This document shows, in pieces, positions 4,966 through 25,082 of a DNA stretch of 64,000 nucleotides. The DNA comes from Salipiger pallidus. GTDB taxonomy: Bacteria > Pseudomonadota > Alphaproteobacteria > Rhodobacterales > Rhodobacteraceae. The stretch spans positions 186,274 to 250,273 of the forward strand of contig NZ_BMJV01000005.1 in the NCBI RefSeq assembly GCF_014643635.1, read 5' to 3'. The notes under the pieces were generated by a model, which saw only the letters and a program-made list of their open reading frames with translations, did not search any database and was not told the origin of the DNA. A program made the position numbers and the translations under genes. Within the stretch, counting starts at the first letter, position 1. Each line of letters begins with the position of its first letter.

Positions 4966-6555
4966 TCAGAAGGCCAGCGCGAGCCCGTCCTTGCGCGGGT
5001 CGGACCCGGCTACGTACCCTGCGTCCGTGCGCTGGATCAGCTGCGCGCCACCAAAGCCGAAGACCGCATCGGGGCTTTCGCGCTTCAGCTCGTGGCCCAT
5101 TGTGGTCAGTTGCGCGGCAAGCCCTTCGTCAAAGGTGCTCTCGATGGCGACGCCGCGGCCTGCGGTCACCCGCCAGCGCGGCGCATCGGCTGCCGCCTGC
5201 GGGTTCTGGCCGAAGCCGAGCACGCGCAGCGCCATCTGCAGGTGCCCCTGCGCCTGCATCGGGCCGCCCATGACGCCGAAGGACATGGCAGGCTGGCCCT
5301 TCGCGTCGGTGGCAAAGCAGGGAATGATGGTCTGGAACGGTTTCTTGCGCGGGGCGACCACGTTGACGTGGGCAGGATCAAGCGAAAAGCCCGCGCCACG
5401 GTTCTGCATCGAGATCCCCCAGTCCGGCACCACTGCGCCCGAGCCGAAGCCCATGAAGTTCGACTGGATGAAGGACACCATGCGCCCGTCGCGGTCGGCG
5501 GTGGACAGGTAGACCGTACCGCCCAGTTTCGGGGTTCCGTGGCCCGGATCACCCGCCTTTGACGGATCGATTAGCGCGGCGCGCTTCGCGAGGTAGTCGG
5601 GCGTCAGGAAGTCGGCGGGCGTGTGGCGCATGTGGCCCAAGTCAGCGATATGTTCGTAGGCGTCCACAAGGCCCAGCTTCACCGCCTCGATGGCAAGGTG
5701 CATGGTGGCGGGATCGTCAGGGGCGCCGTCCTTCCAGCCCAGCCGGTCCAGCACGCCCAAGGAGATGAGCGCCCCGAGCCCCTGCCCGTTCGGCGGGATC
5801 TCGTGGATCCTGTAGCCTGCGAATTCGGTCGAGATCGGGGCAACCCATTCCGCCTCGTGGGCGGCCAGATCGTCGACGCTCAGCACAGCGCCATTGGCCT
5901 TGGCGGCGGCGGCGATGACCTCGGCCACCTCACCGCGATAGAAGGCCTCTCCCTCGGTGGCGACGATGGCGCGCAGTGTGCGGGCGTGACCCGGCAGACG
6001 CATTCGCTGGCCCGCCAGCGGCGCCGTGCCGCCGTGCAGGAAGCAGCCCGCAAACCCGGGTTGGCTGCCCAGCTGCTTCGCACCGTTGGCCCAGAGTTTC
6101 GCGATGACCGGAGACACCGGGAAGCCTTCCTCCGCGATCCGGATGGCGGGGGCGGCAAGCTGCTCGAGCGGCAGGGTGCCAAAGCGTCTCCACAGCGCGA
6201 TCCAGCCCGAGACCGCCCCCGGCACGGTCACCGAATCCCAGCCGCGCTGGGGCATGATATCGGCGCCGGCGAAGCGCTCGGGCGTCCAGCCCTCGGGCGA
6301 GCGGCCCGAGGCATTCAGCCCGTGCAGTTCCGCACCGTCCCAGACCAGCGCGTAGCCGTCCGAGCCAAGCCCGCAGCCCGTGGGCTCCACCACCGTCAGC
6401 ACCATGGCTGCCGCGATCGCCGCGTCCACTGCCGTGCCGCCCGCGTGCAGCATCGCCATGCCCGCCTGTGCCGCCAGCGGCTGCGAGGTGGCAACGGCGC
6501 TATCGCCCATGACGGGCTGGCGGACGGAAGCGTAAGGCAGGGTCGGATCAATCAC
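4966..6555 (-). CDS. Gamma-glutamyltransferase-family hydrolase
   Basis: A 529-aa Ntn-hydrolase of the gamma-glutamyltranspeptidase family, which cleaves or transfers gamma-glutamyl groups after self-processing at a threonine. The large-subunit signature (LAAQAGMAMLHAGGTAVDAAIAAA) and the processing region (LGGTVYLSTADRDG) are clear, placing the nucleophile at Thr347; the region ending FGSG and the later MGGPMQAQGH follow as expected. Unlike periplasmic Ggt there is no signal peptide, suggesting a cytoplasmic enzyme acting on an imported compound. It is tightly spaced with the glycosidase-like gene downstream and 45 bp from the FAD oxidoreductase upstream. Confidence 0.88.
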   Translation of the reverse strand: MIDPTLPYASVRQPVMGDSAVATSQPLAAQAGMAMLHAGGTAVDAAIAAAMVLTVVEPTGCGLGSDGYALVWDGAELHGLNASGRSPEGWTPERFAGADIMPQRGWDSVTVPGAVSGWIALWRRFGTLPLEQLAAPAIRIAEEGFPVSPVIAKLWANGAKQLGSQPGFAGCFLHGGTAPLAGQRMRLPGHARTLRAIVATEGEAFYRGEVAEVIAAAAKANGAVLSVDDLAAHEAEWVAPISTEFAGYRIHEIPPNGQGLGALISLGVLDRLGWKDGAPDDPATMHLAIEAVKLGLVDAYEHIADLGHMRHTPADFLTPDYLAKRAALIDPSKAGDPGHGTPKLGGTVYLSTADRDGRMVSFIQSNFMGFGSGAVVPDWGISMQNRGAGFSLDPAHVNVVAPRKKPFQTIIPCFATDAKGQPAMSFGVMGGPMQAQGHLQMALRVLGFGQNPQAAADAPRWRVTAGRGVAIESTFDEGLAAQLTTMGHELKRESPDAVFGFGGAQLIQRTDAGYVAGSDPRKDGLALAF

Positions 6556-6600: not shown

Positions 6601-7902
6601 TCAGGAAGGCGCCTCGGTCTCGAGACGGTCACGGAATTCGCTCCAAGGCAACCACATATAGGGGCCAATGGGCGCGAAGGCGCGCATGGGCACCGGGTCC
6701 GGCTGCGTGACGGGCACCACAAATTCGGCCTCGGTGGTGCGGCCGGCAAGGAAGCGCCCCAGCTCGTAGCCGAAGGCGGTGGTCAGAGCCACGCCGCGCC
6801 CGTTGCAGGCGATGGGCGCCCAGAGGCCATCATTCAACCGATACAGGCGCGGCAAACTGTCGAGCGTGATCGCCACGGTGCCCGTCCACGCATATTCGGC
6901 GCGCACCTTGCCGAGGCCGGGCAGGAAGCGCTCGAAGCGTTTCTCGAACCGGCGGCGGGTGCGGGCCATGCGCCCCGGCCCCGGGTAGACGAGGCCACCG
7001 CCCACGATGCGCCCATCGGGCGACCAGCGGGCCGCGAAAAGGTGCCGGCGGGTGTCGGCCACCGGGGCGCGGGCGGGCAAGATGCGCGCCTGCGTCTCGG
7101 CGTCAAAGCGCTGGGTGGCGATCTGGAAGCTGCGGGTGGGAATGATCGAGCGGTCCACGGCGGCACACAGCGGCCCCACCATAGCGTTCGAGGTCAGCAC
7201 CACCTGCCCCGCCCGCACCCGGCCCGAAGCGGTCCTGACCGCCCATCCGATGCCGTCGCGCTCAATCCCCGTCACCGGGGAGCGGGCGAGGATCTGCACC
7301 CCGGCCCCAAGGCAGGCGCGCACCAGCCCGCGCACATAGGCCAGCGGGTTCACCTGCCCGCCGGTGGGGATGTGCATGGCGCCGTGGTAGCCGTCCATCC
7401 CGGTCTTGGCATGGGTGGCCTCGGCATCCAGAAGCTCCACGTCGAAGCCCAGATCGCGCCATTCGGACACCTGCGCCGCATTGGCAGCCAGCGCGGCACG
7501 GCTGTGGGCCGGTTGCAGCCAGCCGGTCTGCTCGGCACCGTCAATGCCGTGCTCGCGCACCAGATCGAACAGACGCGTGCCAGACCCGCCGATCATCCGG
7601 CTAAACGCCTCACCACGCGGCTTGCCGAAGGTCGCCATGGCATTCTTTGGCGACAGCGCCTTCTTGAGCGTCGGCACCACGAAGCCGGTATTGCGCCCGG
7701 AGGCGCCGAACCCCGGCTCGGACGCCTCGATGAGCGCAACCGAATGCCCCTCGGCGGCCAGCGTAAGCGCGGTGTTGAGGCCGAGATACCCCGCCCCCAC
7801 CAGCGCGAAATCCACCGTGATCTCGCCCTCAAGACGCGGCAGGTCCGGACCGGAAGGGGTGATCGCGGACCACAGGGAGTGTTTGAAGGTTTCCTCAACC
7901 AT
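6601..7902 (-). CDS. FAD-dependent amine/amino-acid oxidoreductase (DAO family)
   Basis: A 433-aa flavoprotein of the DAO/PuuB-like group, which oxidises secondary or primary amines. The FAD-binding Rossmann motif is at residues about 31-60 (VDFALVGAGYLGLNTALTLAAEG), followed by GFGASGRNTGF, typical of glycine/sarcosine and gamma-glutamylputrescine oxidases. The C-terminal GRGVALTTAFGYELGRFLAG completes the FAD site. It is in operon with the creatininase-like gene (12 bp upstream) and the gamma-glutamyltransferase-like gene, so it may oxidise an amine released by those hydrolases. Exact substrate unknown. Confidence 0.85.
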   Translation of the reverse strand: MVEETFKHSLWSAITPSGPDLPRLEGEITVDFALVGAGYLGLNTALTLAAEGHSVALIEASEPGFGASGRNTGFVVPTLKKALSPKNAMATFGKPRGEAFSRMIGGSGTRLFDLVREHGIDGAEQTGWLQPAHSRAALAANAAQVSEWRDLGFDVELLDAEATHAKTGMDGYHGAMHIPTGGQVNPLAYVRGLVRACLGAGVQILARSPVTGIERDGIGWAVRTASGRVRAGQVVLTSNAMVGPLCAAVDRSIIPTRSFQIATQRFDAETQARILPARAPVADTRRHLFAARWSPDGRIVGGGLVYPGPGRMARTRRRFEKRFERFLPGLGKVRAEYAWTGTVAITLDSLPRLYRLNDGLWAPIACNGRGVALTTAFGYELGRFLAGRTTEAEFVVPVTQPDPVPMRAFAPIGPYMWLPWSEFRDRLETEAPS

Positions 7903-7914
7903 AAAGGTGCCTTT

Positions 7915-8724
7915 TCAGCCAGCGAGGGGCGCCATGCCCCCGGTCTTGCCAGTGCGCAGCGGCGCACGGGCGAAATCATCGTAGAAGGCGGCAAGCCGGG
8001 CCACCGTGACTTCGAGCATCGCCTCACCGTTGCGCAGGTCAGCCGCGCCGGGATCACCGTAATAACCGCAGTCGTCCGGCTGGAAGACCGGCGGCCAGAT
8101 CGCCCCTGCGGTGGTGATGGGATCACCCGCGCTGTCCGAGGCCATCCACGGCTGGGTGCAGCGGGGCGGATAGCCCTGCCCAGCGTTCTCATCCACAAGC
8201 CCAAGCGCCATCAGAAGCGCGGTTTCGTATTCGCAGGCGTGGCCCGCTCGGTCTAGCCCGCCCTTCAGCATCGGCACCCAGTCGGCCTGTGATGGGGCAA
8301 AGTAGTTCACTGCTCCAACCGCGTGGCCGTCGGTCACCATCTCACCGATAAGGCTGCGCAGGGGCGCTTCGTTGCCGCCATGGCCGTTGACGAAAAGCAC
8401 GCGGTTGAACCCGGTGTCGAGCACGGAGCGCGCGAGGTCATGCAGCACCGCCAGATAGGTGGTCAGCCGCAGCGACAGCGTCCCGGCCCAAGCCCCGTGA
8501 TGGGGCGAAAAGCCGGACGCCACGGCCGGGGCCACGACAACCGGCACCCCTGCCCGCTCCGCTGCACGTTCCGCCACGGCCGCGCTCAGCAGCGTGTCGC
8601 AGCCGACGGGAAGATGATCGCCATGCTGCTCGGTCGCGCCGGTGGGAATGACCACCAGCGCGCCCAACTCACGCAGCCCGGCAAGCTCCTGCCGTGTCAG
8701 GGAATGCCAGAGCCGTGCCATCAC
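7915..8724 (-). CDS. Creatininase-family metal-dependent amidohydrolase
   Basis: A 269-aa member of the creatinine amidohydrolase family, enzymes that open cyclic or linear amides with a two-metal centre. The ligands are visible: TEQHGDHLPVGCD (Glu32, His34, Asp36, Asp43 region), SGFSPHHGAWAGT, and NGHGGNEAP. The length is normal for the family. The start codon overlaps the stop of the cupin gene by 4 bp, so the two are coupled. Family members act on creatinine, on 3-dehydro-scyllo-inosose derivatives and on peptides such as mycofactocin precursors, so the name does not settle the substrate. Confidence 0.87.
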   Translation of the reverse strand: MMARLWHSLTRQELAGLRELGALVVIPTGATEQHGDHLPVGCDTLLSAAVAERAAERAGVPVVVAPAVASGFSPHHGAWAGTLSLRLTTYLAVLHDLARSVLDTGFNRVLFVNGHGGNEAPLRSLIGEMVTDGHAVGAVNYFAPSQADWVPMLKGGLDRAGHACEYETALLMALGLVDENAGQGYPPRCTQPWMASDSAGDPITTAGAIWPPVFQPDDCGYYGDPGAADLRNGEAMLEVTVARLAAFYDDFARAPLRTGKTGGMAPLAG

Positions 8725-9098
8725 ATGTCGCCATGTTCCTTGGACGGGTTGGCGCAGACCGCGACAACCAGCCCAGCTTCGCCGATGATGTGGCGGTAGC
8801 GGTAGGATTTGGGCAGGTACATCGCGTCACCCTGCTTGAAGATCCGCTCTTCGCCAGTTTCCTCGACGATCTGGCGCGACCAGCCCTGCAGGCAGTAAAG
8901 CACCACCTGGTTCTCGCCGTTGCCCTCTACCATCACGTCGAAGTTCGGCATGTAGGTGGTGATGTGGAACGAGAACGAGCAGCCATTCTGGTTCTTGGTG
9001 ATGAGCCGGTGAGAGAATTCCTTGCCTTCGTGCACCCAGGTCAGCGGCACGTCTTCCTGACGGGCCCACTGGATTGTGTCTTCAAGCGCTTTGGTCAC
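8721..9098 (-). CDS. Ectoine-synthase-like cupin protein
   Basis: A 125-aa single-domain cupin resembling EctC: SFSFHITTYMPNFDVMVEGN, VLYCLQGWSRQIVEETGE, FKQGDAMYLPKSYRYRHI and a closing VAVCANPSKEH follow the EctC order. No ectA, ectB or ectD is nearby, so it is an orphan, and it may catalyse a related cyclisation or ring-opening reaction, or act on another metabolite. The start chosen is the GTG at 9098, preceded by AAAAGGAC at good spacing; a GTG 12 codons further upstream is possible. It is the first gene of the left-hand operon, divergent from the GntR gene. Confidence 0.75.
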   Translation of the reverse strand: MTKALEDTIQWARQEDVPLTWVHEGKEFSHRLITKNQNGCSFSFHITTYMPNFDVMVEGNGENQVVLYCLQGWSRQIVEETGEERIFKQGDAMYLPKSYRYRHIIGEAGLVVAVCANPSKEHGDM

Positions 9099-9161
9099 GG
9101 GAATGTCCTTTTCTGATGGGAGCGGCGCGGCCACGTCCCCGAGTCGTTTGGGTATTTGGTG

Positions 9162-9171
9162 TAATATATCT
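9162..9171 (-). promoter_or_regulatory. Candidate GntR operator, left operon (weak copy)
   Basis: TAATATATCT, 8 of 10 matches to the palindrome TGATATATCA seen at four other promoters in this block. It lies 64 bp upstream of the cupin start in the divergent region shared with the GntR gene. Confidence 0.5.
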
Positions 9172-9295
9172 GAGAAATCTTACAGGAATTGTCCAGTACA
9201 ACCGGCCCCGAATTGCTCTTTGCTGGCGTGAGATGCCCGAAAAGAATGCACCCGGGCGCGTCGCTGACAAAAGGGCGGAAGAGAGCGCAATGCAA

Positions 9296-9324
9296 TTGAA
9301 CCAGAAAGAACTTTTGATATATCA
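9296..9324 (+). promoter_or_regulatory. Promoter of the GntR gene with overlapping TGATATATCA operator
   Basis: TTGAAC (9296-9301), 16 bp, then TATATC (9318-9323) is a plausible sigma70 promoter. A perfect TGATATATCA palindrome (9315-9324) covers the -10 element, the layout expected for autorepression by the regulator encoded just downstream. Confidence 0.6.
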
Positions 9325-9363
9325 GGGAAAACATCTTTTTCGACACAACCGGAGATACTGCCC

Positions 9364-10113
9364 GTGAGCCAACTTGCCGAGACGTCTCCGAAGAGCGCCA
9401 CCAAGCCCGCGGCCAAAGCCAAGGCTGGGGCCGTCAAGAAGACCACGAAGCGCCAGTCGCTGACGGAACAGGTCTATGCCCAGTTGCGCCGCGAGATCCT
9501 CAGCTGCACGCTTAAACCGGGCACGGACCTGTCGGAGGCCGAGCTGGCGGAGCGCTTTGACGTCTCCAAAACCCCGGTGCGCGAGGCCCTCGCGGCGCTG
9601 CGCCTCGACGGGCTGATCCGCACCTTCCCGCGCCGTGGCTACCAGGTGGCACCGATCACCTTTGGCGACATGAACGAGCTTTTCGACGTGCGCACGATCC
9701 TCGAATCGGGCGCCGCCGAGATGGCCGCCAGCCGTGTGACCGACGAAGAGCTTGATCGCCTCACCCAACTGGCGGTTGCCTCCTACGATGTGAGCGCCCA
9801 GACCACGCTTGCGGAGTTCATCACGAAGAACCGCGACTTCCACCTTGCGATCGCCCGTGCGTCGCGGAACGAACGGCTCTACCAGATGCTGGAGCGGCAG
9901 ATCGACGAGCTTGAGCGGTTCTTTTACCTCGGCGCGACCTTGCGCGACGTGAACACCGAAACCAACGAGGAACACAAGGAAATCGTCGAGGTTCTTGCCC
10001 GGCGCGACCCCGAAGCCGCGCGCCAGATTCTGGTTCACCACAACGATGTTACCCGCAAGGGCCTGATCACCACGCTGGCCAGCAGTCCCAGCTTCGGAAC
10101 GGTCTCTCTTTAA
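9364..10113 (+). CDS. GntR-family transcriptional regulator, FCD (FadR-like) subfamily
   Basis: A 249-aa regulator starting with GTG. A basic, Lys/Ala-rich leader of about 30 residues precedes the winged-helix domain (residues ~32-95: LTEQVYAQLRREIL, AELAERFDVSKTPVREALAAL, GLIRTFPRRGYQV), followed by an all-helical FCD ligand-binding domain (~105-230, with FHLAIARASRNERLYQML). FCD regulators usually sense small acids or metabolites of the genes they control. Its central, divergent position and the TGATATATCA copies at its own and neighbouring promoters point to a local repressor of the whole block. Confidence 0.9.
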   Translation: MSQLAETSPKSATKPAAKAKAGAVKKTTKRQSLTEQVYAQLRREILSCTLKPGTDLSEAELAERFDVSKTPVREALAALRLDGLIRTFPRRGYQVAPITFGDMNELFDVRTILESGAAEMAASRVTDEELDRLTQLAVASYDVSAQTTLAEFITKNRDFHLAIARASRNERLYQMLERQIDELERFFYLGATLRDVNTETNEEHKEIVEVLARRDPEAARQILVHHNDVTRKGLITTLASSPSFGTVSL

Positions 10114-10164
10114 GCACATTGCCCGGCGCCCGCGGGTTTTGCGGCCCGCGTGTGTCGGAAAGCA

Positions 10165-10192
10165 TTGGCAACATCCGTGATATATCTATAAA
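10165..10192 (+). promoter_or_regulatory. Promoter of the racemase-hydantoinase-SDR operon with GntR operator
   Basis: TTGGCA (10165-10170), 16 bp, TATAAA (10187-10192). TGATATATCT (10178-10187), a 9/10 match to the shared palindrome, fills the spacer and touches the -10 element, so bound regulator should block RNA polymerase. The racemase ATG is 41 bp downstream. Confidence 0.62.
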
Positions 10193-10232
10193 ATACCTAA
10201 ACAAACATAGAAGCCATATCAGAGACCGTCCG

Positions 10233-10898
10233 ATGACCCGCATCTTCATCCTGAACCCCAACAGCAGCGCCAGCGTCACCGACGCCATGGCGCACTCCGT
10301 TGACCTCGTGAAGGACGGGCTCTGGGCCGAGCCAGTCTTCGGCACCCTCGAGGGTGGCCCCGCCGGCATCGAAAGCCAGGCCGACATCGACACGGTTATC
10401 CCGCCCCTGCTGGACCGGATTGCCGCGGAAGAGGCCGACGCCTACGTGATCGGCTGCTTTTCGGATCCCGGCCTTGCGGTGGCCAAGGCGAACTCGGCCG
10501 CGCCCGTGGTCGGCATCGCCGAAGCTGCCTATGGGGAGGCCGTGCAGCTTGGCGTGCCCTTCGGCGTGGTATCCATCGTGCAGGCCTCCATCGGCCGTCA
10601 CGCCAAGGCCATCGATGCGCTTGGCTACACGCCCTTCCTTGCCGGTGACCGGTCGCTCGACATCGGCGTGACGGAAATGGATCAGGCCGACCGCGCGATT
10701 GCCCGCATCACCGAGATCGGGACCGAGCTGCGCGACATCGACGGCGCGCGGTCGCTGATCCTCGGCTGTGCCTCCATGGGCGTTTACCGCGCCGAGATCG
10801 AACGCCGGCTCGGCCTGCCGGTCATCGACCCGGTACAGGCCGGCGCACTCAGGGCGCAGATGCTGCTGACCCTGAACTACCCCAAGACCCCGCACTGA
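10233..10898 (+). CDS. Aspartate/glutamate/hydantoin racemase family protein
   Basis: A 221-aa cofactor-independent racemase-fold protein (HyuE/Asp-Glu racemase superfamily). The two acid-base cysteines are present: Cys75 (VIGCFSDPG) and Cys179 (LILGCASMG), spaced as in hydantoin racemases. The N-terminal FILNPNSSASVTDAM is the family phosphate/carboxylate-binding start. A longer in-frame start exists upstream but would run through the operator, so the ATG at 10233 is preferred. First gene of an operon with the hydantoinase-like and SDR genes. It may racemise a hydantoin or amino acid, or act as a maleate-isomerase-type enzyme. Confidence 0.85.
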   Translation: MTRIFILNPNSSASVTDAMAHSVDLVKDGLWAEPVFGTLEGGPAGIESQADIDTVIPPLLDRIAAEEADAYVIGCFSDPGLAVAKANSAAPVVGIAEAAYGEAVQLGVPFGVVSIVQASIGRHAKAIDALGYTPFLAGDRSLDIGVTEMDQADRAIARITEIGTELRDIDGARSLILGCASMGVYRAEIERRLGLPVIDPVQAGALRAQMLLTLNYPKTPH

Positions 10899-10914
10899 AT
10901 GAAAAGGACCTCCC

Positions 10915-12264
10915 ATGTTTGATCTGCTCCTCAAGGGCTCGGTGGTCCTGCCCGACCGCATCATCGAAGACGGCTGGGTCGCGGTACGCGGCGAGCGCAT
11001 CGGCGCCATCGGCACCGGCGAAGCGCCTCAGGCCACCAAGATGATCGACGCCGGCACCGACTGGATCATCCCCGGTATCGTCGACGGTCAGACCCACGCC
11101 ACCAGCTACAAGGGCCTTCCCGGATTCGAGGCGACGTCGCAATCAGCCTTGGCGGGCGGCATCACCACCATGGTGGACATGCCCTACGACAACCCCGACC
11201 CGCTGAACACTCTCGAGCGGTTCGATGCCAAGGTGCAGGCAGTCCACGATTATTCCCATTGCGACGTGGCGCTTTACGGCACCGTGGCCCCGGGTCAGGG
11301 CACCGATCTCATGCAGCCGCTCGCCGACCGGGGAATCTGCGCCTTCAAGCTGTCGCTGATCGAAAGCCACCCGGTGCGCTTCCCGCGCATCCCGGCGGAC
11401 GAGATCCTCGACATCCTCACCGCCTCGGTGCCCACCGGCCTGCCCGTGGGCCTGCACAACGAAGATCAGGAGATCGTCCGCGCGATGATCGAGCGGCACA
11501 AGGCCCAAGGCCTTACCCGCCCCGAGCACAACGAAACCTCGCGCCCCGAGGTGGCCGAGCTCAGCGCAACCGCGCAGTTCATGGAGTTGGGCGCGGCCAC
11601 CGGCGCGCATGTGCATATCGTGCACCTCTCGTCGCCGCGTGGGCTGCAGATGATCGCCGAGTATGCGGCGCGCGGCGTGCGCGCCACCGGCGAGCTATGC
11701 GTGCACTACCTGCATTTCGACGCCGCCCGTGACATCGAACGGCTTGGCGCGCGCATGAAGGTGTCACCCCCCATCCGTTCGGGCATGATCGAGGACCTGT
11801 GGCAGGCCTGCGAAGACGGCCTTCCCGCCCTCATTTCCTCGGATCATTCGAGCTGGCCCATCGACAACAAGCTGGCGGCTTCCATCTTTGACGCAGGCGC
11901 GGGCATTCCCGGGCTTGAGACGCTGGGGCCGTCTTTTTACACGGACGCCGCCGAACGCTACGGCGAAGAGGGTGCCGTCCGCCGCCTCGTGGACTACATG
12001 TGCCTCAAGCCCGCGGAATTCTTCGGGCTGGCGCCGCGCAAGGGCGCCATTGCCGCCGGGGCAGACGCGGATCTTGTCGTGCTCAAGCGCGGCCCGAAGC
12101 CGTTCGACGCCTCGCAGACCCGTGACGGGCTCAACTGGAGCCCCTATGACGGCGAAACATTCACTGCCTCCGTCGCCACCACCGTGCGGCGCGGGGAAAT
12201 CGCCTGGGATGGCGCGCAGATCCTGTCAACGGCAGGCAGCGGCGCCTTCATCCCGCGCAACTGA
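10915..12264 (+). CDS. Allantoinase/dihydropyrimidinase-like cyclic amidohydrolase, altered metal site
   Basis: A 449-aa protein of the dihydroorotase/allantoinase/hydantoinase superfamily, enzymes that open cyclic amide rings. Lys145 (FKLSL, normally carboxylated), His181 (GLHNEDQ), His237 (HIVHLSS) and Asp310 (LISSDHSSW) are at the right places. The first metal motif, normally Asp-x-His-x-His, reads Asp57-Gly-Gln59-Thr-His61: the first histidine is glutamine. Activity may need one metal only or be changed. It lies between the racemase (16 bp upstream) and the SDR (15 bp downstream), the arrangement of a ring-opening pathway. Confidence 0.85.
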   Translation: MFDLLLKGSVVLPDRIIEDGWVAVRGERIGAIGTGEAPQATKMIDAGTDWIIPGIVDGQTHATSYKGLPGFEATSQSALAGGITTMVDMPYDNPDPLNTLERFDAKVQAVHDYSHCDVALYGTVAPGQGTDLMQPLADRGICAFKLSLIESHPVRFPRIPADEILDILTASVPTGLPVGLHNEDQEIVRAMIERHKAQGLTRPEHNETSRPEVAELSATAQFMELGAATGAHVHIVHLSSPRGLQMIAEYAARGVRATGELCVHYLHFDAARDIERLGARMKVSPPIRSGMIEDLWQACEDGLPALISSDHSSWPIDNKLAASIFDAGAGIPGLETLGPSFYTDAAERYGEEGAVRRLVDYMCLKPAEFFGLAPRKGAIAAGADADLVVLKRGPKPFDASQTRDGLNWSPYDGETFTASVATTVRRGEIAWDGAQILSTAGSGAFIPRN

Positions 12265-12279
12265 TAAAGGAAGTACCCT

Positions 12280-13062
12280 ATGGATCTCGGGATCACCGAC
12301 AAACGCGCCCTCGTGCTGGCCTCCTCCCGGGGCCTTGGCCTCGGCATCGCCGAAGCGCTGGTGGCCGAAGGCGTCCACGTCATGCTGACCGGTCGCAACG
12401 AAGCCGCGCTCAAGGAAGCCTCGGAGCGTCTGACCGCCGCCGGTCCCGGCCGCGCGGTCTTTGCCGTGGTGGATATGAGCGCCCCTGACGCGGCGGACAC
12501 CGTGGTGACGGCGGCCATCGACGCGCTTGGCGGCGTCGACATCCTCGTCAACAACACCGGCGGCCCGAAGCCCGGCCCGATCACCGCATCGACCGGCTGG
12601 ACCGATGCCTTCGACACCATGGTCGAGCGCGTCATCTCCGTGACCAACCTGCTGCTGCCGCACATGCGCGAGCGGGGCTGGGGCCGCATCCTGACGCTGA
12701 CCTCGTCGGGCGTGGAACAGCCGATCCCCAACCTTGGCATGTCCAACACCCTGCGCGCGGCGCTGCTGGGCTGGTCCAAGACGCTGGCCTCGGAAGTGGC
12801 GGGCGACGGCGTGACCTCGAACATCCTGCTGCCGGGCCGCATCCATACCGACCGGGTGGACGAGCTGGACGCCAACGCCGCCAAGCGCCAAGGCAAGACC
12901 CCCGAGGAGGTCGCCACCGCATCGCGCGCCACAATCCCCGCGGGCCGTTACGGCAAGGTTGAGGAATTTGCCGCCGTCGCCGCTTTCCTCGTGAGCGACA
13001 AGGCCTCCTACGTCACCGGCGCCAAGTTCCGCTGCGATGGCGGCATGATCCGGTCCATCTGA
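12280..13062 (+). CDS. Short-chain dehydrogenase/reductase-like protein, divergent active site
   Basis: A 260-aa Rossmann-fold SDR. The nucleotide-binding loop is atypical (LASSRGLGLGIAEAL rather than TGxxxGIG), and NNTGG (about 91-95) and the Ser142/143 region (LTLTSSGVEQ) are present. At the place of the catalytic Tyr-x-x-x-Lys is Ser155-Asn-Thr-Leu-Arg159, so both key residues are replaced. This matches a known SDR subgroup related to beta-ketoacyl-ACP reductase whose tetrad is imperfect. It is the third gene of the racemase operon; a strong terminator follows. Confidence 0.85.
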   Translation: MDLGITDKRALVLASSRGLGLGIAEALVAEGVHVMLTGRNEAALKEASERLTAAGPGRAVFAVVDMSAPDAADTVVTAAIDALGGVDILVNNTGGPKPGPITASTGWTDAFDTMVERVISVTNLLLPHMRERGWGRILTLTSSGVEQPIPNLGMSNTLRAALLGWSKTLASEVAGDGVTSNILLPGRIHTDRVDELDANAAKRQGKTPEEVATASRATIPAGRYGKVEEFAAVAAFLVSDKASYVTGAKFRCDGGMIRSI

Positions 13063-13166
13063 CCGGCTGATCTTCCCGGCGGGCGTATTCTCCCTTTGCG
13101 CCCCCGGTTGCCGCGCCTTTACCCGCGCGGCGATCGAGCGTGGCTCCCTTTCGCTTCGGGTCACTC

Positions 13167-13198
13167 GGGCGGCCCCATGTGCAGGGGCCGCCCTTTTT
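13167..13198 (+). terminator. Rho-independent terminator of the racemase-SDR operon
   Basis: GGGCGGCCCC / GGGGCCGCCC perfect 10-bp stem, 7-nt loop, then TTTTT; about 105 bp after the SDR stop. Confidence 0.9.
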
Positions 13199-13253
13199 CT
13201 TTGCCTATTGGCAGGTTGACCTCATCAGGCAGGGCACAGGATCAGCGCGATGC

Positions 13254-13283
13254 AAAAAAAGGCCGCCGGTAGCCCCGGCGGCC
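13254..13283 (-). terminator. Rho-independent terminator of the DapA-like gene
   Basis: On the minus strand GGCCGCCGG / CCGGCGGCC (9-bp stem, 5-nt loop) is followed by seven Ts; it lies 28 bp past the stop codon of the DapA-like gene. Confidence 0.9.
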
Positions 13284-13311
13284 ATTCAACGTCTCAGTCA
13301 GGCAGGGCGGC

Positions 13312-14235
13312 TCAGGCCAGCTCGGCCAGCCGCTTTTCAAGCCGCGCAAGCGTGCGGTCCAGCTCGGCCATGTCGGCGGCCTCGAGCTTCGGCCCCGGGC
13401 GGCGCACGAAGGGCGACGCGATGGCACCGCGGCGGAACAGCACTTCCTTGCGGAAGGCAAGGCCGAGGCCCGGCTGAGTCTCGAGGCGGATCAGCGGCAG
13501 ATGCGCGTCGAAGATGTCCTCGACCGCGTCACGCTTGCCGATCTTGCAGCCTTCGACCACCTGCGCCAGCATCTCGGGGAAGGCATAGCCGGTCATCGCA
13601 CCGTCGGCACCACGCTCCATCTCCTGCGGCAGGAACAGACCGCCGTTGCCTACAAGGATCGACACCCGGCCAGCGCCTGCCTCTTCGGCCGTGCGCAGCG
13701 CGCCGAGCTTGGCCAGACCCGGCCAGTCCTCGTGTTTCAGCATGACGATCTGCGGGTTCTCCGCAAAGATCTGCAGCAGGCAATCCACCGAGAACTGCAC
13801 ACCAAGCGCCAGCGGGAAATCCTGAAGCACCACCGGAACATCCGGCCCCAGCGCTTCGCAGACCATGCGGTAGTAGCCGGTCAGCTGCGCATCGGTGCGC
13901 AGGTTCGGCGTGGGAGCGACCATGACGCCCGCGGCGCCCCGCTCCATCGCCTGCAGGCTGAGCGAGCGCAGTGCCACGAGGCCCGGCGCAGACACGCCCA
14001 CGACCACCGGAACACGCCCTGCCACGGTGGCCAGCACGGTGTCGAGGAAGCTGAGCGATTCCTCGGGGGTAAGCTTGGCCGCCTCGCCCATCATGCCCAG
14101 CACCGTCAGCCCCGACGCGCCCTTCTCGAGGTAGAACTCGGTGAGGCGCTTCGCGCTTTCGAGGTCCAGCGCGCCGTCCGCCGTGAACGGCGTCGCGGAA
14201 ATGACGAAAACGCCGCTCGTCTGGTTGTCGATCAT
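13312..14235 (-). CDS. Dihydrodipicolinate synthase (DapA)-family aldolase/lyase
   Basis: A 307-aa Schiff-base TIM-barrel aldolase. The family GMMGEAAKLTPEE motif (about 47-59) and the Schiff-base lysine Lys167 (VMLKHED) are present. The usual catalytic tyrosine position (L-Y-N-x-P in DapA) reads L-Gln138-Asp-Phe-Pro, so this is not lysine biosynthetic DapA but a catabolic branch such as the keto-deoxy-sugar, hydroxyproline or related aldolase/dehydratase lines. The start at 14235 has AAGGAG about 7 nt upstream; an upstream in-frame ATG lacks this. It is transcribed away from the flavoprotein gene, with a GntR operator between them. Confidence 0.85.
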   Translation of the reverse strand: MIDNQTSGVFVISATPFTADGALDLESAKRLTEFYLEKGASGLTVLGMMGEAAKLTPEESLSFLDTVLATVAGRVPVVVGVSAPGLVALRSLSLQAMERGAAGVMVAPTPNLRTDAQLTGYYRMVCEALGPDVPVVLQDFPLALGVQFSVDCLLQIFAENPQIVMLKHEDWPGLAKLGALRTAEEAGAGRVSILVGNGGLFLPQEMERGADGAMTGYAFPEMLAQVVEGCKIGKRDAVEDIFDAHLPLIRLETQPGLGLAFRKEVLFRRGAIASPFVRRPGPKLEAADMAELDRTLARLEKRLAELA

Positions 14236-14434
14236 TGGTCTTCTCCTTTGCAGCCCCCCCCGGGGCATTCATCACGTATCCGCGCCGCGGGGCAGCCTCA
14301 ACCTCCCGGCCAATCGGCCACGTAGAAGCGTCGACCGACGCCGACGGAGCACAACTGCCCGTCTTGCAAGCATCTGCCGGGAATCCGGGGTCCGCGTGCC
14401 GTGGCGGATCTGGACATGATCATAAGAATATATT

Positions 14435-14444
14435 TGATATATCA
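14435..14444 (+). promoter_or_regulatory. GntR operator between DapA-like and flavoprotein genes
   Basis: Perfect TGATATATCA palindrome in the 254-bp divergent intergenic region, 46 bp before the flavoprotein ATG. On the minus strand TTGTGA-17 bp-TATGAT overlaps it and could drive the DapA-like gene. Confidence 0.62.
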
Positions 14445-14489
14445 CAAGCAATACCAAACGCGCTTAGCGCGCAATTTCCGGAGCCAGGC

Positions 14490-16442
14490 ATGACCCAGAG
14501 CGACTTTTCGAGGCTGACGCAGCCCATCACCATCGGCGGCTGCGAGATCCGCAACCGCATCGTCATGACCGGCCATGGCACCGGCATGCCGACCGACGGG
14601 ACCCCCAACGACCAAATGGTTGCCTATTATGAGGAACGGGCGAAGGGCGAGGTCGGGCTGATCATGCTCGGCACCCAGCAGGTGCATCCGTCGTCGCCGG
14701 GCATCACCGGCCTTCTCACTTGCTATGACGACCGCATTATTCCCGGCCTGAAGCGCGTGGCCGACGCGGTGCACAAGCACGGCGGGCGCATCTTCGGCTA
14801 CCTCGGACACATGGGCATGGCCTCCTCGGCCCGGCCCGTGGCGCTGTGGTCCGCCTCGGCCACCTACGAGCAGAAGTTCGGCGAGGTCGCGCACGAGATG
14901 ACGCGGGCCGAAATCGCCGAGCTGGTGGCCAGCTTTGCCGCAGCCGCCCGCCGCAACCTCACCGCCGGGATGGACGGGATCGAGGTGCATTGCGGCCATG
15001 GCCTGTTGCTCATGCAGTACCTGTCGCCGCACACCAATTTCCGTACCGACGAATATGGCGGCTCGGTCGAGAACCGCACCCGCTTCCCCCGCGAGGTGCT
15101 GGCCGCCGTCCGCGCCGAGATAGGCCCCGACGTGCCCCTTGGCATCCGGGTGTCCGGCGACGAGCTGGTGCCCGGCGGCCTCACGGTCGAGGACATGGAA
15201 GAGATCTGCACCCTGCTCGTAGAGGCGGGCGATCTTGATTACATCGACGTGAGCGCGGGCACCGATGGCGATCTTGTGTCCAACATGCTGCACGAGCCAC
15301 CAATGGGCCTGCCGCCCGCGCCCTATGCGTCCGTGGCTGGGCGGATCAAGGCCGCCTGCCCCGGCGTCGCAATCCTGCACGCCACCCGCATTCACACCGC
15401 CGCCGAGGCCGAAGCGCTTCTGGCGCGGGGCGATGCGGACATGGCCGGGATGGTGCGACCGCTCATCGCGGACCCGCACCTGCCCGCAAAGGCGCGGCGC
15501 GGCGATGCGGACCGAGTGACCCCTTGCGTAGCCTGCGAACAGGCATGCTTTGGCCGCCTCTACCGGGGCCGCCACATATCCTGCGTGGGCAATCCCACCA
15601 CGGGCCGCGAGCAACGCTGGTACGGTCTGCCGCAGGCCACGCCAAAGCGTGTCACCATCATTGGCGCAGGCCCCTCGGGGATGGAGGCGGCGCGCATTGC
15701 CGCCCTGCGCGGCCACACTGTGACACTGCACGATGAGCACGACGTGCTCGGGGGGCGGATGAACGTCGCCCGCCTGCCCTCGTGGCGGTCGGAATGGGGC
15801 CGCATGGTGGCCCACAAGGCGTCCGAGATCGATAAACTGGGCGTGATGCTGAAGCTGGCCGCCCGCGCCGATCTGGACACCATCCGCGCCGATGCGCCGG
15901 ACGTGGTGCTGCTGGCCTGTGGCTCAAAGCCCAACCCACTCAAGATGCCTGGGATCGAGACCGCGCCGGTGGTCATCGTCGACGACGCGGTGAAGGCCCC
16001 CGAGATCTGCGGCAAGCGTGTGCTGATCATCGACAACATGAACCGCACCCCCGGCACCGCCTGCGCGCTGCATCTTGCCGAACGCGGCCACGAGGTCAGC
16101 ATCGCGACGCAAGGCCTGCATGCCGGCCACCAGCTGGTGATCCAGAACCTGACCCTCTTCCACCGCCGCGCCGCCGAGATGGGCGTCAATTGCCTGACCT
16201 CCGTGCGCCCGGTGCGCTTCGACGGCGGCAGCGTAACGCTTCACAACGTCTTCAGCCGCAAGGATCTGCCGCCCATAGAGGTCGACACCATCGTCGTCGC
16301 CGACCCCGGCCTGCCCCGCAACGAACTGTTCGAACCGCTGGAAACCGCCGGAATCAACGTCCGCGCCATCGGCGATGCTTATGCCCCGCGCGACATCGAG
16401 GCGGCGTTTCTCGACGGTTACGAGGCGGCGATCGCGCTCTGA
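14490..16442 (+). CDS. Fe-S flavoprotein of the old-yellow-enzyme/trimethylamine-dehydrogenase class
   Basis: A 650-aa two-part oxidoreductase. Residues ~1-340 form the FMN TIM barrel (NRIVMTGHGTGM, then the substrate-loop histidine region GIEVHCGHGLLLMQYLSP and NRTRFPREVL). A [4Fe-4S] motif follows with Cys346, Cys349, Cys353 and Cys365. Residues ~390-650 form the nucleotide-binding domain (VTIIGAGPSGMEAARIAALRG). The family includes 2,4-dienoyl-CoA reductase, trimethylamine dehydrogenase and N-methylproline-type demethylases. In this catabolic setting oxidative N-demethylation or C-N cleavage is a reasonable guess. The ATG at 14490 was chosen over a longer frame because the fold begins there and the operator lies just upstream. 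Confidence 0.85.
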   Translation: MTQSDFSRLTQPITIGGCEIRNRIVMTGHGTGMPTDGTPNDQMVAYYEERAKGEVGLIMLGTQQVHPSSPGITGLLTCYDDRIIPGLKRVADAVHKHGGRIFGYLGHMGMASSARPVALWSASATYEQKFGEVAHEMTRAEIAELVASFAAAARRNLTAGMDGIEVHCGHGLLLMQYLSPHTNFRTDEYGGSVENRTRFPREVLAAVRAEIGPDVPLGIRVSGDELVPGGLTVEDMEEICTLLVEAGDLDYIDVSAGTDGDLVSNMLHEPPMGLPPAPYASVAGRIKAACPGVAILHATRIHTAAEAEALLARGDADMAGMVRPLIADPHLPAKARRGDADRVTPCVACEQACFGRLYRGRHISCVGNPTTGREQRWYGLPQATPKRVTIIGAGPSGMEAARIAALRGHTVTLHDEHDVLGGRMNVARLPSWRSEWGRMVAHKASEIDKLGVMLKLAARADLDTIRADAPDVVLLACGSKPNPLKMPGIETAPVVIVDDAVKAPEICGKRVLIIDNMNRTPGTACALHLAERGHEVSIATQGLHAGHQLVIQNLTLFHRRAAEMGVNCLTSVRPVRFDGGSVTLHNVFSRKDLPPIEVDTIVVADPGLPRNELFEPLETAGINVRAIGDAYAPRDIEAAFLDGYEAAIAL

Positions 16443-16505
16443 CAGGGCGCGATGCGCTATGGAATGCCTAAAGATACATCAATGCGAGCCTTTTGATGCG
16501 TCTTC

Positions 16506-16515
16506 TGATATATCA
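16506..16515 (+). promoter_or_regulatory. GntR operator upstream of the amino-acid ABC importer
   Basis: Perfect TGATATATCA palindrome 113 bp before the binding-protein start, in a 185-bp intergenic stretch that is AT-rich compared with its surroundings. A looser copy (AGATACATCA-like) lies about 35 bp upstream. Confidence 0.6.
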
Positions 16516-16627: not shown

Positions 16628-17488
16628 ATGACCCACTTCCGCAAGACCGCGAGCGCCATCGCCATGACCCTCGCGCTGGTCGCGCCTATGGCGCAGGCGC
16701 AGGACTTCTCGACCTCGGACCTCGAGGTGAGCCTCGATTTTCCGCAGCCTTGGCCGCTGGAGAACCTCATCGAGGACGGCAAGCTGATCATCGCCACCAC
16801 CGGCAAGACCGCGGGCGAGACCTTCATCGGCGAGAACGGTGAACTTCAGGGCGCGCGCATCGACCTGTGGACCAAGATGGCCGAGGACCTCGGCCTTGAG
16901 CCGGAATTCGTGCGCGTCGACTGGGCGGGCGTGATGCCGGGCCTTGCGGCCAACCGTTTCGATCTTGGCTGCGAAGGCGCAAGCTGGAACAACGACCGCC
17001 TGACCTCGAACGACTTCTTCCTGACGCGCCCGGTCAAGGTCGCGATCCACGTCGCGGTGGTGAAGAAGGACAGTGACTATGACAGCCTCGACGATCTCGC
17101 GGGCGTCAAGATCGGCGGCGTGAAGGGTGAGATGGAGCTCAAGCACCTTGTGGAGGCCACCGGCCACGCCGAAGAGGACGCGCTTGGCCTGCCCGGCGTG
17201 ACCGAATCCCGCCTCGCGCTGATGAACGGCCAGATCGACGCCTACGGCACCGGCCTGCACGCGGCCACCGCGCTGCTGGAAAGCGAAGGCGGCGACCAGT
17301 TCAAGATCCTCTCCACACCCACCTCGGTCGGTGTCGGCGGTTTCTGCGTCAACGCGCGCGAACCCGACCTGCTCACCGCCGTGAACTTCCTGCTCGCCAA
17401 GTATCGCACCGACGGCACCATCCGCGAGCTGAACGACAAGTGGGGCCTGCCCGACACCTCCGACATGCTGTCGGTCGTCGGCTACTGA
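16628..17488 (+). CDS. Polar amino-acid ABC transporter, periplasmic binding protein (family 3)
   Basis: A 286-aa protein with a clear signal peptide (FRKTASAIAMTLALVAPMAQAQ, cleavage about residue 23). The mature part has the family-3 signature order: GKLIIATTGKTAGETF, the LWTKMAEDLGLEPEFVRVDWAGVMPGL region, RFDLGCEG, and a C-terminal LLAKYRTDGTIRELNDKWG. It captures an amino-acid-like ligand for the two permeases downstream. The ATG at 16628 begins the signal peptide; the longer frame upstream would start inside the promoter region. Confidence 0.9.
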   Translation: MTHFRKTASAIAMTLALVAPMAQAQDFSTSDLEVSLDFPQPWPLENLIEDGKLIIATTGKTAGETFIGENGELQGARIDLWTKMAEDLGLEPEFVRVDWAGVMPGLAANRFDLGCEGASWNNDRLTSNDFFLTRPVKVAIHVAVVKKDSDYDSLDDLAGVKIGGVKGEMELKHLVEATGHAEEDALGLPGVTESRLALMNGQIDAYGTGLHAATALLESEGGDQFKILSTPTSVGVGGFCVNAREPDLLTAVNFLLAKYRTDGTIRELNDKWGLPDTSDMLSVVGY

Positions 17489-17527: not shown

Positions 17528-18199
17528 ATGGATTTCGACCTTTCCGTATGGATGACGCGCGGACCCTATATTCTGCGCGGGCTCTACGAAACCCTCGTGC
17601 TGTTGGCGGGCGTGCTTGTCATCAGCGCACCACTGGCCGTCCTCACCGGGCTGGCGCTCGAAGCGCGCTCGCGCTGGCTGCGCCTGCCTGCCCTCGGGCT
17701 CAGCTGGCTGATCCGCGGTGTGCCGCCGCTGATCATCCTGTTCATCGCCTATTACGTCCTCCCCGTGGTGCTTGATATCCGGATGGACTCGCTGACCGCC
17801 GCCGTGGCGGGCTTTGTGCTCTACAACACCTTCATCATGGGCGAAGTGGTCGCCGCCGGGCTTCGGTCCGTGCCAAAGGGCCAGCACGAAGCCATCGCCG
17901 CCGCAGGTCTGCCGTGGTTCCGGTCGCTGCGCCGGATCATCCTGCCGCAGGCCATGCCCACGATCATCCCGCCTTACGTCTCCTACTCCATGGACATGGT
18001 GAAGGGCACCGCACTGGCGGGCGCCATCGGCGTCACCGAGATGGTGACCCGCGCCAACCAGGCCATCGTCGCCACCAACCGGCCCTTCGAGATCCTGATC
18101 GGGGTGGCCATCATCTACGGCATCATCGACGCCTTCCTGATCGCGCTGCAGATGTGGTCGGAACGGCGCTGGGATCACAAGGGGCACCTTTCCGCATGA
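17528..18199 (+). CDS. Polar amino-acid ABC transporter permease 1 (HisM/HisQ type)
   Basis: A 223-aa inner-membrane permease of the His/Glu/Gln/Arg/opine family. Several hydrophobic spans are visible (TLVLLAGVLVISAPLAVLTG, PPLIILFIAYYVLPVVL), with the EAA loop QHEAIAAAGLPWFRSLRRIILPQAMP near residues 118-143. The ribosome site AAGAGGA is well placed. The stop overlaps the start of the second permease by 4 bp, as expected for a heterodimeric pore. Confidence 0.9.
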   Translation: MDFDLSVWMTRGPYILRGLYETLVLLAGVLVISAPLAVLTGLALEARSRWLRLPALGLSWLIRGVPPLIILFIAYYVLPVVLDIRMDSLTAAVAGFVLYNTFIMGEVVAAGLRSVPKGQHEAIAAAGLPWFRSLRRIILPQAMPTIIPPYVSYSMDMVKGTALAGAIGVTEMVTRANQAIVATNRPFEILIGVAIIYGIIDAFLIALQMWSERRWDHKGHLSA

Positions 18200-18849
18200 G
18201 CTTTGATCCGACCCTCATTGTCGAGGCCTGGCCGCAGCTGATGCGCGGGCTTGAAACCACCGTCTGGCTGTTCCTTGCGGTAATGATCCTGTGCACCCCG
18301 CTGTCGCTGCTGGTGGCGCTGGCGCGACTGTCGCGCCGCCGCTGGCTGTCCCGGGCAGCGGGCACCTATGTCAACGTGATCCGCGCCCTGCCGCTGCTGG
18401 TCATCCTGTTCTTCACCTTCTACGGCCTGCCGTCCCTGGGCATCTTCGTGTCGCCCTTCACCGCCGCGCTTGGGGGCATGGTGCTGGTCACCACCGCCTA
18501 CCTTGCCGAGGATCTGCGCGCCGGGCTCATGGCCGTGCCCCGTGGCCAGTTCGAGGCTGCCGATGCGCTTGGCCTGCCGCAGGCGCGCTTCGTGCGCCGG
18601 GTGCTGATTCCGCAGGCACTGCCGATCATGTGCGGCCCCTATTTCACCCGCGCCATCGTCACGGTGAAGGCCACTTCCATCGCCTCACTGGTGGCCGTGT
18701 CGGAACTGACCTCGGCCAGCATGGCCAAGGTCACCGAAACCTACCGCGCCATGGAATACCTCGCCTTCGCCGCCGTCGCCTACATCCTGCTCAGCGCGCT
18801 CATCGCCGTGGTGCAGGCCGTGGTCCAGCGCCGTGTGCGCTTGCCCTGA
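18196..18849 (+). CDS. Polar amino-acid ABC transporter permease 2
   Basis: A 217-aa partner permease with the same layout: an N-terminal hydrophobic span ([20 protein letters not shown]), [17 protein letters not shown], and the EAA loop [26 protein letters not shown]. The ATG at 18196 overlaps the stop of permease 1 (ATGA), which decides the start against the long shadow frame upstream. It forms the transmembrane pore with permease 1. Confidence 0.9.
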
Positions 18850-18889
18850 CATCGGCGATCCCCATGCGCCCCCTCTTCCGAGGTCCCTG

Positions 18890-19702
18890 ATGAAAGATAC
18901 CGTCATGCATCCCGAGCCTGCCACCGTCGTCGACCACCAATCCAAGCGCATGCTGGAACTGATCGGCCTGCGAAAGAGCTTCGGCGCGAACCAGGTGCTG
19001 AAGGGGGTCGACCTGTCGATGAACCAAGGCGAAGTGGTGTCGATCATCGGCGCCTCGGGGTCCGGCAAGTCCACCCTCCTGCGCTGCATCAACTGGCTGG
19101 AGACCCCCGACAAGGGATCGACCATCATGGTCGACGGCCGGCAGGTGGGCCATGATGACCCGGCTCGCGCCTCTCGCCGCGACCTCGCCCGCCGGCGCAC
19201 CGAGATCGGCATGGTGTTCCAGCACTTCAACCTTTTCCCCAACATGACTGCCATCGAGAACGTCATGGAGGCGCCCCTTGCCCACGGTCGCGGCACGAAA
19301 CCGGAAATCCGCGCGCTGGCCGAGGAACTCCTTGCCCGCGTAGGCCTGTCCGAGCGCATGACCCACCATCCCAGCCAGCTGTCGGGCGGCCAGCAGCAGC
19401 GCGTCGCCATCGCCCGTGCACTAGCCATGAAGCCCAAACTGATGCTCTTCGACGAGGTGACCTCGGCGCTCGACCCCGAGCTGGTGGACGAGGTGCTCAA
19501 AGTAATGAAAGGGCTGGCAGAGGACGGCATGACCATGCTTTTCGTCACCCACGAGATGGCCTTTGCCGAGGATGTGAGCGACCGTATCATCTTCATGGCC
19601 GATGGCGCGATCCTCGAAGAAGGCCCGCCGTCCGAGGTCCTGCGCAAGCCCCGCCATGACCGCACCCGTTCGTTCCTCTCCCGCGCCATGCGCGGCATGT
19701 GA
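18890..19702 (+). CDS. Polar amino-acid ABC transporter ATP-binding protein (GlnQ type)
   Basis: A 270-aa ATPase with intact Walker A ([15 protein letters not shown]), Q-loop ([12 protein letters not shown]), [15 protein letters not shown] signature, Walker B ([16 protein letters not shown]) and switch histidine (VTHEMAFA). It belongs to the GlnQ/HisP group and completes the importer. The start at 18890 gives a 20-residue leader before the conserved core; ATGs at 18905 or 18950 are alternatives. A decayed second ATPase gene begins about 40 bp downstream. Confidence 0.9.
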
Positions 19703-19740: not shown

Positions 19741-20265
19741 CTCATCCAATTCCGCGCCCTCGAGAAGCCCCTTGGACAGCAATGCGGGCTGCGCGGCATC
19801 GACCACACCGTAAAGCGCGGCGAGGTGCTGGCGATCATCCATGAAGAGGGTTCGGGCAAGACCACGCCGCTGCGCTAAGTCAACCTCCTGATCGTTCCCA
19901 AAAAGGGCCGCATTCACTGGCGCGGTCAGGAGGTCGCTGGCATCAGCGCGGAGCTGTCCGCCTGACCATGAAAGAACACGAGCTGCGGCCCTACCGCCGA
20001 AGTCTCGGAATGCTGTTCCAGCAAATCAACGTCGTCCCGCACATGTCCGCGCTCGGGGCCATCATGGAGACCCCGGTCTCCGCCCAGGGCCGCCCCAGGG
20101 CCGAGGTTAAGGCGGAGGCCGAGGCGCTCATGGCCAAGGTCCGTTTGTTGCACCGCGCCTCTGCCCATCCGAACTAGATGGCGGGCGGCGAGCAGCAGTG
20201 CGCCGTCATCGCGGGCGCTGGCGATGAAGCCCTAGGCGATGCTCTTCGACGACGAGACGTCGCGC
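19741..20265 (+). pseudogene. Decayed polar amino-acid ABC transporter ATPase
   Basis: Translated in pieces this is a GlnQ-type ATPase: IQFRALEKPLGQQCGLRGID, a damaged Walker A (HEEGSGKTTPLR followed at once by a stop), an ELRPYRRSLGMLFQQINVVPHMS Q-loop segment in another frame, an altered signature (MAGGEQQCAV instead of LSGGQQQRV) after a TAG, and RALAMKP-stop-AMLFDDETS in a third frame. Several stops and frame changes make it non-functional. It is probably a remnant of a second transporter, not a copy of the intact ATPase beside it, since the sequence differs throughout. Confidence 0.85.
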
Positions 20266-21012: not shown

Positions 21013-21042
21013 AAAAGAGCCGCACGATTGCTCGTGCGGCTC
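21013..21042 (-). terminator. Rho-independent terminator of the DUF892 gene
   Basis: Minus-strand GAGCCGCACG / CGTGCGGCTC (perfect 10-bp stem, 6-nt loop) followed by TTTT, 23 bp after the stop codon. Confidence 0.9.
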
Positions 21043-21064
21043 CAATTGCAAGGCGCATGTCACG

Positions 21065-22683: not shown

Positions 22684-22769
22684 CTAAGCGCAAGCCGCAG
22701 CGACGTCCGTCCGATACGTTTCTGTGGGTCAGGCGCGCTGAACGCCACGCCGTTCAGGAATATGTCGGA

Positions 22770-23186: not shown

Positions 23187-24087
<901 letters not shown>

Positions 24088-24864: not shown

Positions 24865-25082
24865 GCCGGGGCAGCGCCGCCGATTCCCCCCTTGGCAGGA
24901 GGCCGCTGGAAACGCCTGGTGCCGGGTTCGCATCCTTGCCGCTTTCCAGTCGCTGAATACGTCAGCTCGGGGGCCTCGGACACTCATGGCGGCAACGAGC
25001 CGATACAAGTTGCATCGTTGCGGCATCCTGCACCGCTGACCTCGGCCTATCTCGAGCAAGCGCCGCGGCGGAATAATGGCTG

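Follow-up and report, generated by a model that had tools for sequence, protein, structure and literature searches.

The 64,000-nucleotide stretch of Salipiger pallidus DNA analysed here (contig NZ_BMJV01000005.1, positions 186,274 to 250,273; hereafter the window) contains a catabolic block in whose promoter regions the 10-base-pair (bp) palindrome TGATATATCA recurs. We propose, with a probability of about 0.85, that this palindrome is the operator of the FCD-type GntR regulator encoded within the block (9364..10113, plus strand, 249 amino acids), and that the regulator represses its own gene together with the catabolic and importer genes until it is released by a metabolite. Given its conservation in related bacteria, TGATATATCA is very probably the binding site of this regulator. 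The local regulon is real and conserved, and it is very probably autoregulated.

Sites in the window were graded against TGATATATCA as exact, 9/10 or 8/10 matches, with dinucleotide shuffles as the background. Exact copies lie at 9315..9324, 49 bp upstream of the GTG start of the regulator gene; at 14435..14444, in the gap between the divergent DapA-like and flavoprotein genes; and at 16506..16515, upstream of the ATP-binding cassette (ABC) importer operon. A 9/10 copy, TGATATATCT (10178..10187), is found in the spacer of a sigma70-like promoter of the racemase operon, and an 8/10 copy, TAATATATCT (9162..9171), 28 bp upstream of the assigned start of the left operon. The initial annotation had reported five copies with these positions and grades, in promoter regions of a single catabolic block, and both points are borne out. 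With start codons as assigned in this analysis all five are intergenic, and they occupy the four promoter-capable gaps: two in the divergent cupin/GntR gap, and one each in those of the racemase operon, the DapA-like/flavoprotein pair and the importer. No copy was present in the convergent gap between the DapA-like gene and that of the short-chain dehydrogenase/reductase (SDR). A possible second weak copy upstream of the importer, AGATACATCA (8/10; 16472..16481), was absent from the earlier list. The exact site ahead of the regulator start places an operator in the regulator's own promoter region, as expected of an autoregulated repressor.

A consensus promoter scan returned two promoter-like sites (shuffle mean 0.8). 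The copy at 10178 sits between TTGGCA and TAAAAT, a candidate -35/-10 spacer, and the copy at 14435 overlaps TTGTGA of a minus-strand candidate promoter. The claim that two copies overlap -35/-10 elements therefore holds loosely, being accurate for 14435 and, for 10178, true only of the spacer between the hexamers. Because binding at 10178 should block transcription, repression is the likelier sign. The regulator could instead bind these sites and activate, or activate some promoters and repress others: the 14435 copy overlaps a candidate -35, sites other than 10178 lack a clear promoter, and position leaves the sign unfixed at some promoters. We regard this as rather unlikely given the spacer position of 10178 and the case nearest in mechanism: Atu1419, a VanR-type FCD GntR regulator of Agrobacterium fabrum (PDB 6z74/6za3), is a repressor (PMC7797058).

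The regulator belongs to the GntR superfamily by its Pfam winged helix-turn-helix domain (PF00392; 1.5e-18, 66.7 bits, cutoff 27) and to the FCD (FadR) subfamily by its effector domain (PF07729; 2.9e-28, 99.2 bits, cutoff 24.3). Its AlphaFold model (mean predicted local distance difference test score, pLDDT, 84) has six helices after the wing, and six is the helix number of the VanR group, to which the modelled regulator is assigned. In the Atu1419 study, this group is set apart by lacking the extra effector-domain helix of the FadR group (PMC7797058). The closest solved folds found with Foldseek were 7u5q, then PmiR (7xp1), then Atu1419. Metal-binding FCD domains use a ligand set of three His and one Asp/Asn; by analogy N156, H160, H204 and H226 may form a putative metal site, the first three being invariant and the fourth nearly so in an alignment of 18 sequences. 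Lys69 opens the recognition helix at the place of the G-contacting Arg45 of Atu1419/FadR; it is Lys in all 14 orthologs described below and invariant in the same alignment.

At up to two mismatches the window holds 10 matches, compared with a shuffle mean of 3.9 (standard deviation 1.8), and none of 100 shuffles reached 10. Six of these matches are inside the block; the remaining four are all 8/10. The whole genome (4,443,326 bases, 23 contigs) has four exact copies of TGATATATCA, three of them within the 7.2-kilobase (kb) block, and the backwards control has none. For four points placed at random, the probability of finding any three inside a 7.2-kb span is about 3e-5, a figure to be read with the caveat that the motif was picked by the initial annotation after being seen. 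At up to one mismatch there are 16 copies, 4 in the block and 12 elsewhere. The sole exact copy outside the block (L001:1501; G000:C1:1022022) has Lrp-like and Rrf2-like genes nearby, as named by eye.

The GntR protein was searched against bacterial and archaeal genomes, which yielded 198 relatives; the best 80 were retained. Fourteen are orthologs at 58-86% identity (L016-L029), and no other retained relative exceeds 42% within the matched region; the pair L020 and L021 comes from a single genome, and L026 is closely related to L027. TGATATATCA occurs at up to one mismatch in 13 of the 14 orthologous loci. When palindromic 10-mers were ranked across 15 whole loci against a dinucleotide background, without preselecting the motif, TGATATATCA came first of 1024, with 27 copies in 14 loci where 1.06 were expected; over the 400 bp upstream of the regulator it was second by z-score, after the related TAATATATTA. 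All four promoters that carry the strong sites of the window also have copies in Salipiger mucosus (L017), and three of them do in S. pentaromativorans (L016). The copy at the regulator gene is exact in both congeners, that in the DapA-like/flavoprotein gap is exact in L017 and 9/10 in L016, that at the importer is exact in L017, and the racemase promoter carries the variant TGATATATCT in all three genomes. In each case the 10-mer is conserved amid diverged promoter flanks. For the weak copy at 9162, the 22 bp spanning it are 18/22 identical in L016, which has the same divergent layout (best of 60 shuffles, 17).

Across the genus, exact sites were found in 10 of 20 genomes, 17 in total and 0-4 per genome, the other 10 having none. 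Seven of the 17 lie in a window-type cluster (three in the window's own genome, G000, three in G303 and one in G307); the coordinates identify G303 with the genome of L017 and G307 with that of L016, so these counts are not independent of the ortholog comparison. Another four fall in G300 and G306, in clusters that encode a racemase, an amidohydrolase and a DapA-like protein together with a different importer, where a regulator of about 48% identity closes the operon (G300) or is encoded on another contig (G306). Clusters with the same enzymes and a ~48% regulator have exact sites at their head in two of four genomes (G300 and G306); G311 has a 9/10 copy within its cluster, and G305 a 9/10 copy whose placement is not clear. 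One exact site (G302) lies 29 bp upstream of another FCD GntR gene, L109, which has Leu at the Lys69 place. This gene (L109:1501 / L245:6556) encodes the helix SLTPLRD, has an exact TCTGATATATCAGA and falls in a clade of Arg-type regulators. No GntR link was recognised for the remaining five, of which one belongs to the own genome and four to other members of the genus. One locus without a recognised link, L113:1491-1510 (G308), has adjoining TGATATATCG and TGATATATCA, 10 bp apart.

These counts and comparisons uphold the earlier proposal of a local GntR regulon. The exact motif is not equally common elsewhere, with a single own-genome copy outside the block and half of the genus genomes without any, and it is conserved with the cluster in the orthologous loci and at the same promoters in two congeners. 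It also accompanies relatives of the regulator. L025 has the regulator alone in common with the window, and a 9/10 site lies upstream of that regulator. None of the window's enzymes was matched in L030-L034 (36-38% identity), yet all five carry the site ahead of the regulator gene (exact in L031-L033, 9/10 in L030 and L034). Because the site is present before regulator relatives that lack the block enzymes, it follows the regulator. A class search with the L031 regulator gave matches in 4 of 385 genomes, the own genome included.

A broader survey pooled the 385 same-class genomes with the earlier loci into 195 deduplicated FCD regulators, a site being counted at up to one mismatch and up to 450 bp upstream. 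The query was an alignment of Lys-type regulators, picked regardless of motif except for L109, which had been found via the motif. Sites were present in 17 of 29 Ser-Lys, 0 of 129 Ser-Arg, 1 of 22 Gly-Arg and 0 of 12 Gly-Lys regulators, and in 1 of 3 others (L109). The top palindrome of the Ser-Arg group was TTGTATACAA, that of the Gly-Arg group TTGTCGACAA (at up to one mismatch in 21/22 loci) and that of the Gly-Lys group TGACATGTCA (likewise in 6/12). The ~48% regulators account for four of the Ser-Lys regulators scored as lacking a site; any site that they have is found at another position in the cluster. With L109 left out and sequences clustered at 80, 60 and 45% identity, Fisher tests of the Ser-Lys association gave p = 1.7e-10, 2.8e-7 and 0.0019, respectively, without regard to the tree. 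A tree of the 195, built with the recognition residues masked, groups every Lys-type but L041 in a single 42-member clade (support 0.90) that also includes two Arg members, and the association is therefore mostly one event. Plasmid relatives were added from 23 of 38 matching records. The final tally of 218 deduplicated loci was 20/44 for Ser-Lys, 1/133 for Ser-Arg (L264), 0/13 for Gly-Lys, 2/23 for Gly-Arg (L085 and L268), 1/1 for Ser-Leu (L109, via the motif) and 0/4 for others.

The distribution of the motif also bears on whether it could be the site of a different DNA-binding protein acting on the block as well, such as a nucleoid or global factor or the product of a regulator gene located elsewhere. 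Such a protein would fit the five exact copies without a visible GntR link, one in the own genome and four across the rest of the genus. A global factor should nevertheless exceed 0-4 exact copies per genome across the 20 genomes, and the motif sits ahead of the regulator gene itself, tracks the GntR clade into loci without the block enzymes and is nearly absent before Ser-Arg FCD relatives. We consider this explanation improbable, and more so than activation.

Several observations weigh against assigning the palindrome to this regulator and its clade. The left-operon site at 9162, at 8/10, is the weakest copy, and the 12 copies found elsewhere in the own genome at up to one mismatch show no depletion against the backwards control (5). 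At 59% identity, L029 shows nothing better than an 8/10 copy near its regulator. The window regulator and its orthologs make up 15 of the 29 Ser-Lys regulators of the survey, and 10 of these 15 have the site; seven of the other 14 have it, three of those seven being near-identical (L031, L032 and L125). A Ser-Lys paralog in the own genome, C5:335400 (L162), has no site within 450 bp. The 13 plasmid Ser-Lys relatives at 43-62% identity comprise three with a copy at up to one mismatch near the gene, six with 8/10 copies only and four with none; L247 lacks the site at 62% identity, as do the plasmid Ser-Lys regulators L261 and L262 at 36-37%. That the sites are merely AT-rich promoter parts or chance copies selected by eye is very improbable: the motif overlaps promoter-like hexamers, contains TATAT, was chosen post hoc and has the outlying one-mismatch copies just counted, but the palindrome is kept across loci, ranks first of 1024 against the dinucleotide background and has three of its four exact genomic copies in one block.

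A one-residue code, in which Lys at the Arg45 place would specify TGATATATCA and Arg TTGTATACAA, looked strong on the 195 loci. We reject it as a rule: the association mostly reflects a single clade event, the Arg-type L126 has two 8/10 sites, the Lys-type L041 has none, the Arg-type plasmid relative L264 has two 9/10 sites, and just 3 of the 13 plasmid Ser-Lys regulators at 43-62% identity have a site at up to one mismatch near the gene. Because L264 keeps its two sites, Lys69 alone is not the switch, and five other residues rank above it in mutual information with site presence. On the sequences compared, Lys69 neither suffices to mark the site nor is required for it, and we claim no single determinant. 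The predicted operator is instead a property of the clade, drifting or lost within it.

We see even odds for a broader reading, in which the window regulator's clade (42 of 195, support 0.90) left GT...AC operators for TGA-type palindromes, TGATATATCA in Ser-Lys and TGACATGTCA in Gly-Lys members. This would represent a second mode of DNA reading by the GntR fold, with the G one step further out. Palindromes resembling TGACATGTCA, often paired about 21-22 or 44 bp apart (at up to two mismatches), occur at the Gly-Lys loci L137, L140, L141, L151, L161 and L168, and such pairs upstream of Gly-Lys GntR genes are a candidate second operator type. The data suggest that site prediction by the GT...AC rule passes over a clade, whose regulons may therefore go unnoticed.

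The genes of the block were assigned mainly by family searches. The left operon, on the minus strand, begins with a protein that we take to be a cupin (8721..9134; a weak ectoine synthase match, 20.9 bits, below the cutoff of 27), followed by a creatininase-family amidohydrolase (7915..8724), a flavin adenine dinucleotide (FAD)-dependent oxidoreductase of the DAO family (6601..7902; under every NCBIfam cutoff) and a gamma-glutamyltranspeptidase-family protein (4966..6555). An 825-amino-acid protein closes this operon (2486-4963); glycoside hydrolase is a guess by eye only. The racemase operon, on the plus strand, encodes an Asp/Glu/hydantoin racemase-family protein (10233..10898; no NCBIfam match), an amidohydrolase (10915..12264) and an SDR-family dehydrogenase (12280..13062). 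The DapA-like protein, of the DHDPS family, is encoded on the minus strand (13312..14268), and on the plus strand are the old-yellow-enzyme-type flavoprotein (14490..16442; nearest TIGR03997, 597 bits, below the cutoff of 793) and the importer. The latter comprises an amino-acid-type substrate-binding protein (16628..17488; 70 bits for the best match, cutoff 256), two permeases (17528..18199, a reading frame whose homologs adjoin the substrate-binding gene in related loci; and 18190..18849, a reading frame with an approximate start, supported by related loci) and an ATPase (18833..19702, the longest frame, with the true start inside it); permeases and ATPase were named by eye, and the comparisons between loci rest on queries other than the ATPase. 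A repeat search at 20000-26000 gave nothing useful.

The block is patchily distributed. A regulator at 80% identity or above was present in 3 of the 20 genus genomes, and a sample of 295 genomes across the family, almost one per genus, gave no match at an E-value of 1e-40 outside the own genome. Shortened related catabolic clusters adjoin a transposase-like frame, named by eye, in G305 (L243:9925-10863) and an annotated IS110 transposase on an Alloyangia pacifica plasmid (L259:5834-6862). On the Neorhizobium galegae plasmid pNgVX (L246:5941-6650) the ortholog is annotated in two pieces (GntR and FCD), and the locus has no copy of the palindrome at up to one mismatch.

The gene content points to the catabolism of a cyclic amide or an amino-acid derivative. 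In the mechanism that we infer, a dimer would bind each copy of the 10-mer, by analogy with Atu1419. The bound repressor would block its own gene, the operon of the racemase, ErtD-like amidohydrolase and SDR, the DapA-like and flavoprotein genes and the amino-acid-type importer; its effect on the left operon would be weaker. In the cupin/GntR gap, where two sites are separated by 153 bp, each may serve its own gene or the pair may support looping as in Atu1419. The repressor would then be released when its FCD domain binds a metabolite of the compound taken up, probably a carboxylated cyclic amide or the amino-acid derivative to which this gives rise. The findings give a testable operator, regulon and regulator family for an uncharacterised catabolic block, and knowing which ligand relieves repression would indicate the block's substrate.

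The family closest to the block's amidohydrolase is ErtD, the hydantoin-5-propionate amidohydrolase of ergothioneine use (NCBIfam NF058538; 461 bits), yet the score is below the curated family cutoff of 600. No other Ert family was matched by nine other block proteins among their best 25 NCBIfam matches at an E-value of 0.001. Judged by their listings, none of the open-licence papers listed was recognised as reporting TGATATATCA as a GntR operator, nothing on topic joined GntR with GATATATC or with TGACATGTCA, and none relevantly tied hydantoin racemase to GntR or hydantoin-5-propionate to ergothioneine. PmiR of Pseudomonas aeruginosa (7xp0/7xp1), the second-nearest solved protein after 7u5q, has an Arg-type helix, unlike the Lys of the window regulator.

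According to Suvorova et al. 2015, the FCD/FadR subfamily has the consensus NyGTNxACNy, which many GntR motifs match (PMC4494728). The residue-base correlations reported there used only motifs conforming to this consensus, leaving out, for example, the NanR repeats and the BioR motif TTATMKATAA. The window system resembles this subfamily in its winged helix-turn-helix and FCD domains, its palindromic sites and its divergons with one or two sites. It differs in that the exact copies of TGATATATCA lack the GT/AC pair and so fall outside the consensus. The initial annotation had called its short palindrome typical of FCD regulators; this does not hold, since the usual FCD palindrome in that source is of the GT...AC type and TGATATATCA is not.

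The likeness to Atu1419 is closer (PMC7797058). Both combine GntR and FCD domains with a 10-bp palindrome that recurs at the regulator's own promoter and at catabolic targets. The Atu1419 palindrome occurs as three identical copies and one 8/10 copy, over the -10 or between the -10 and -35, an arrangement like that of the window sites. For Atu1419 a tetramer and a DNA loop were demonstrated, Arg45 contacts the G at position 3 of ATGTATACAT, and swapping that base pair abolished binding. The difference lies in the operator: ATGTATACAT is of the GT...AC type with G at position 3, whereas TGATATATCA has its G at position 2. The layout of the window system is ordinary; its operator is outside the family consensus.

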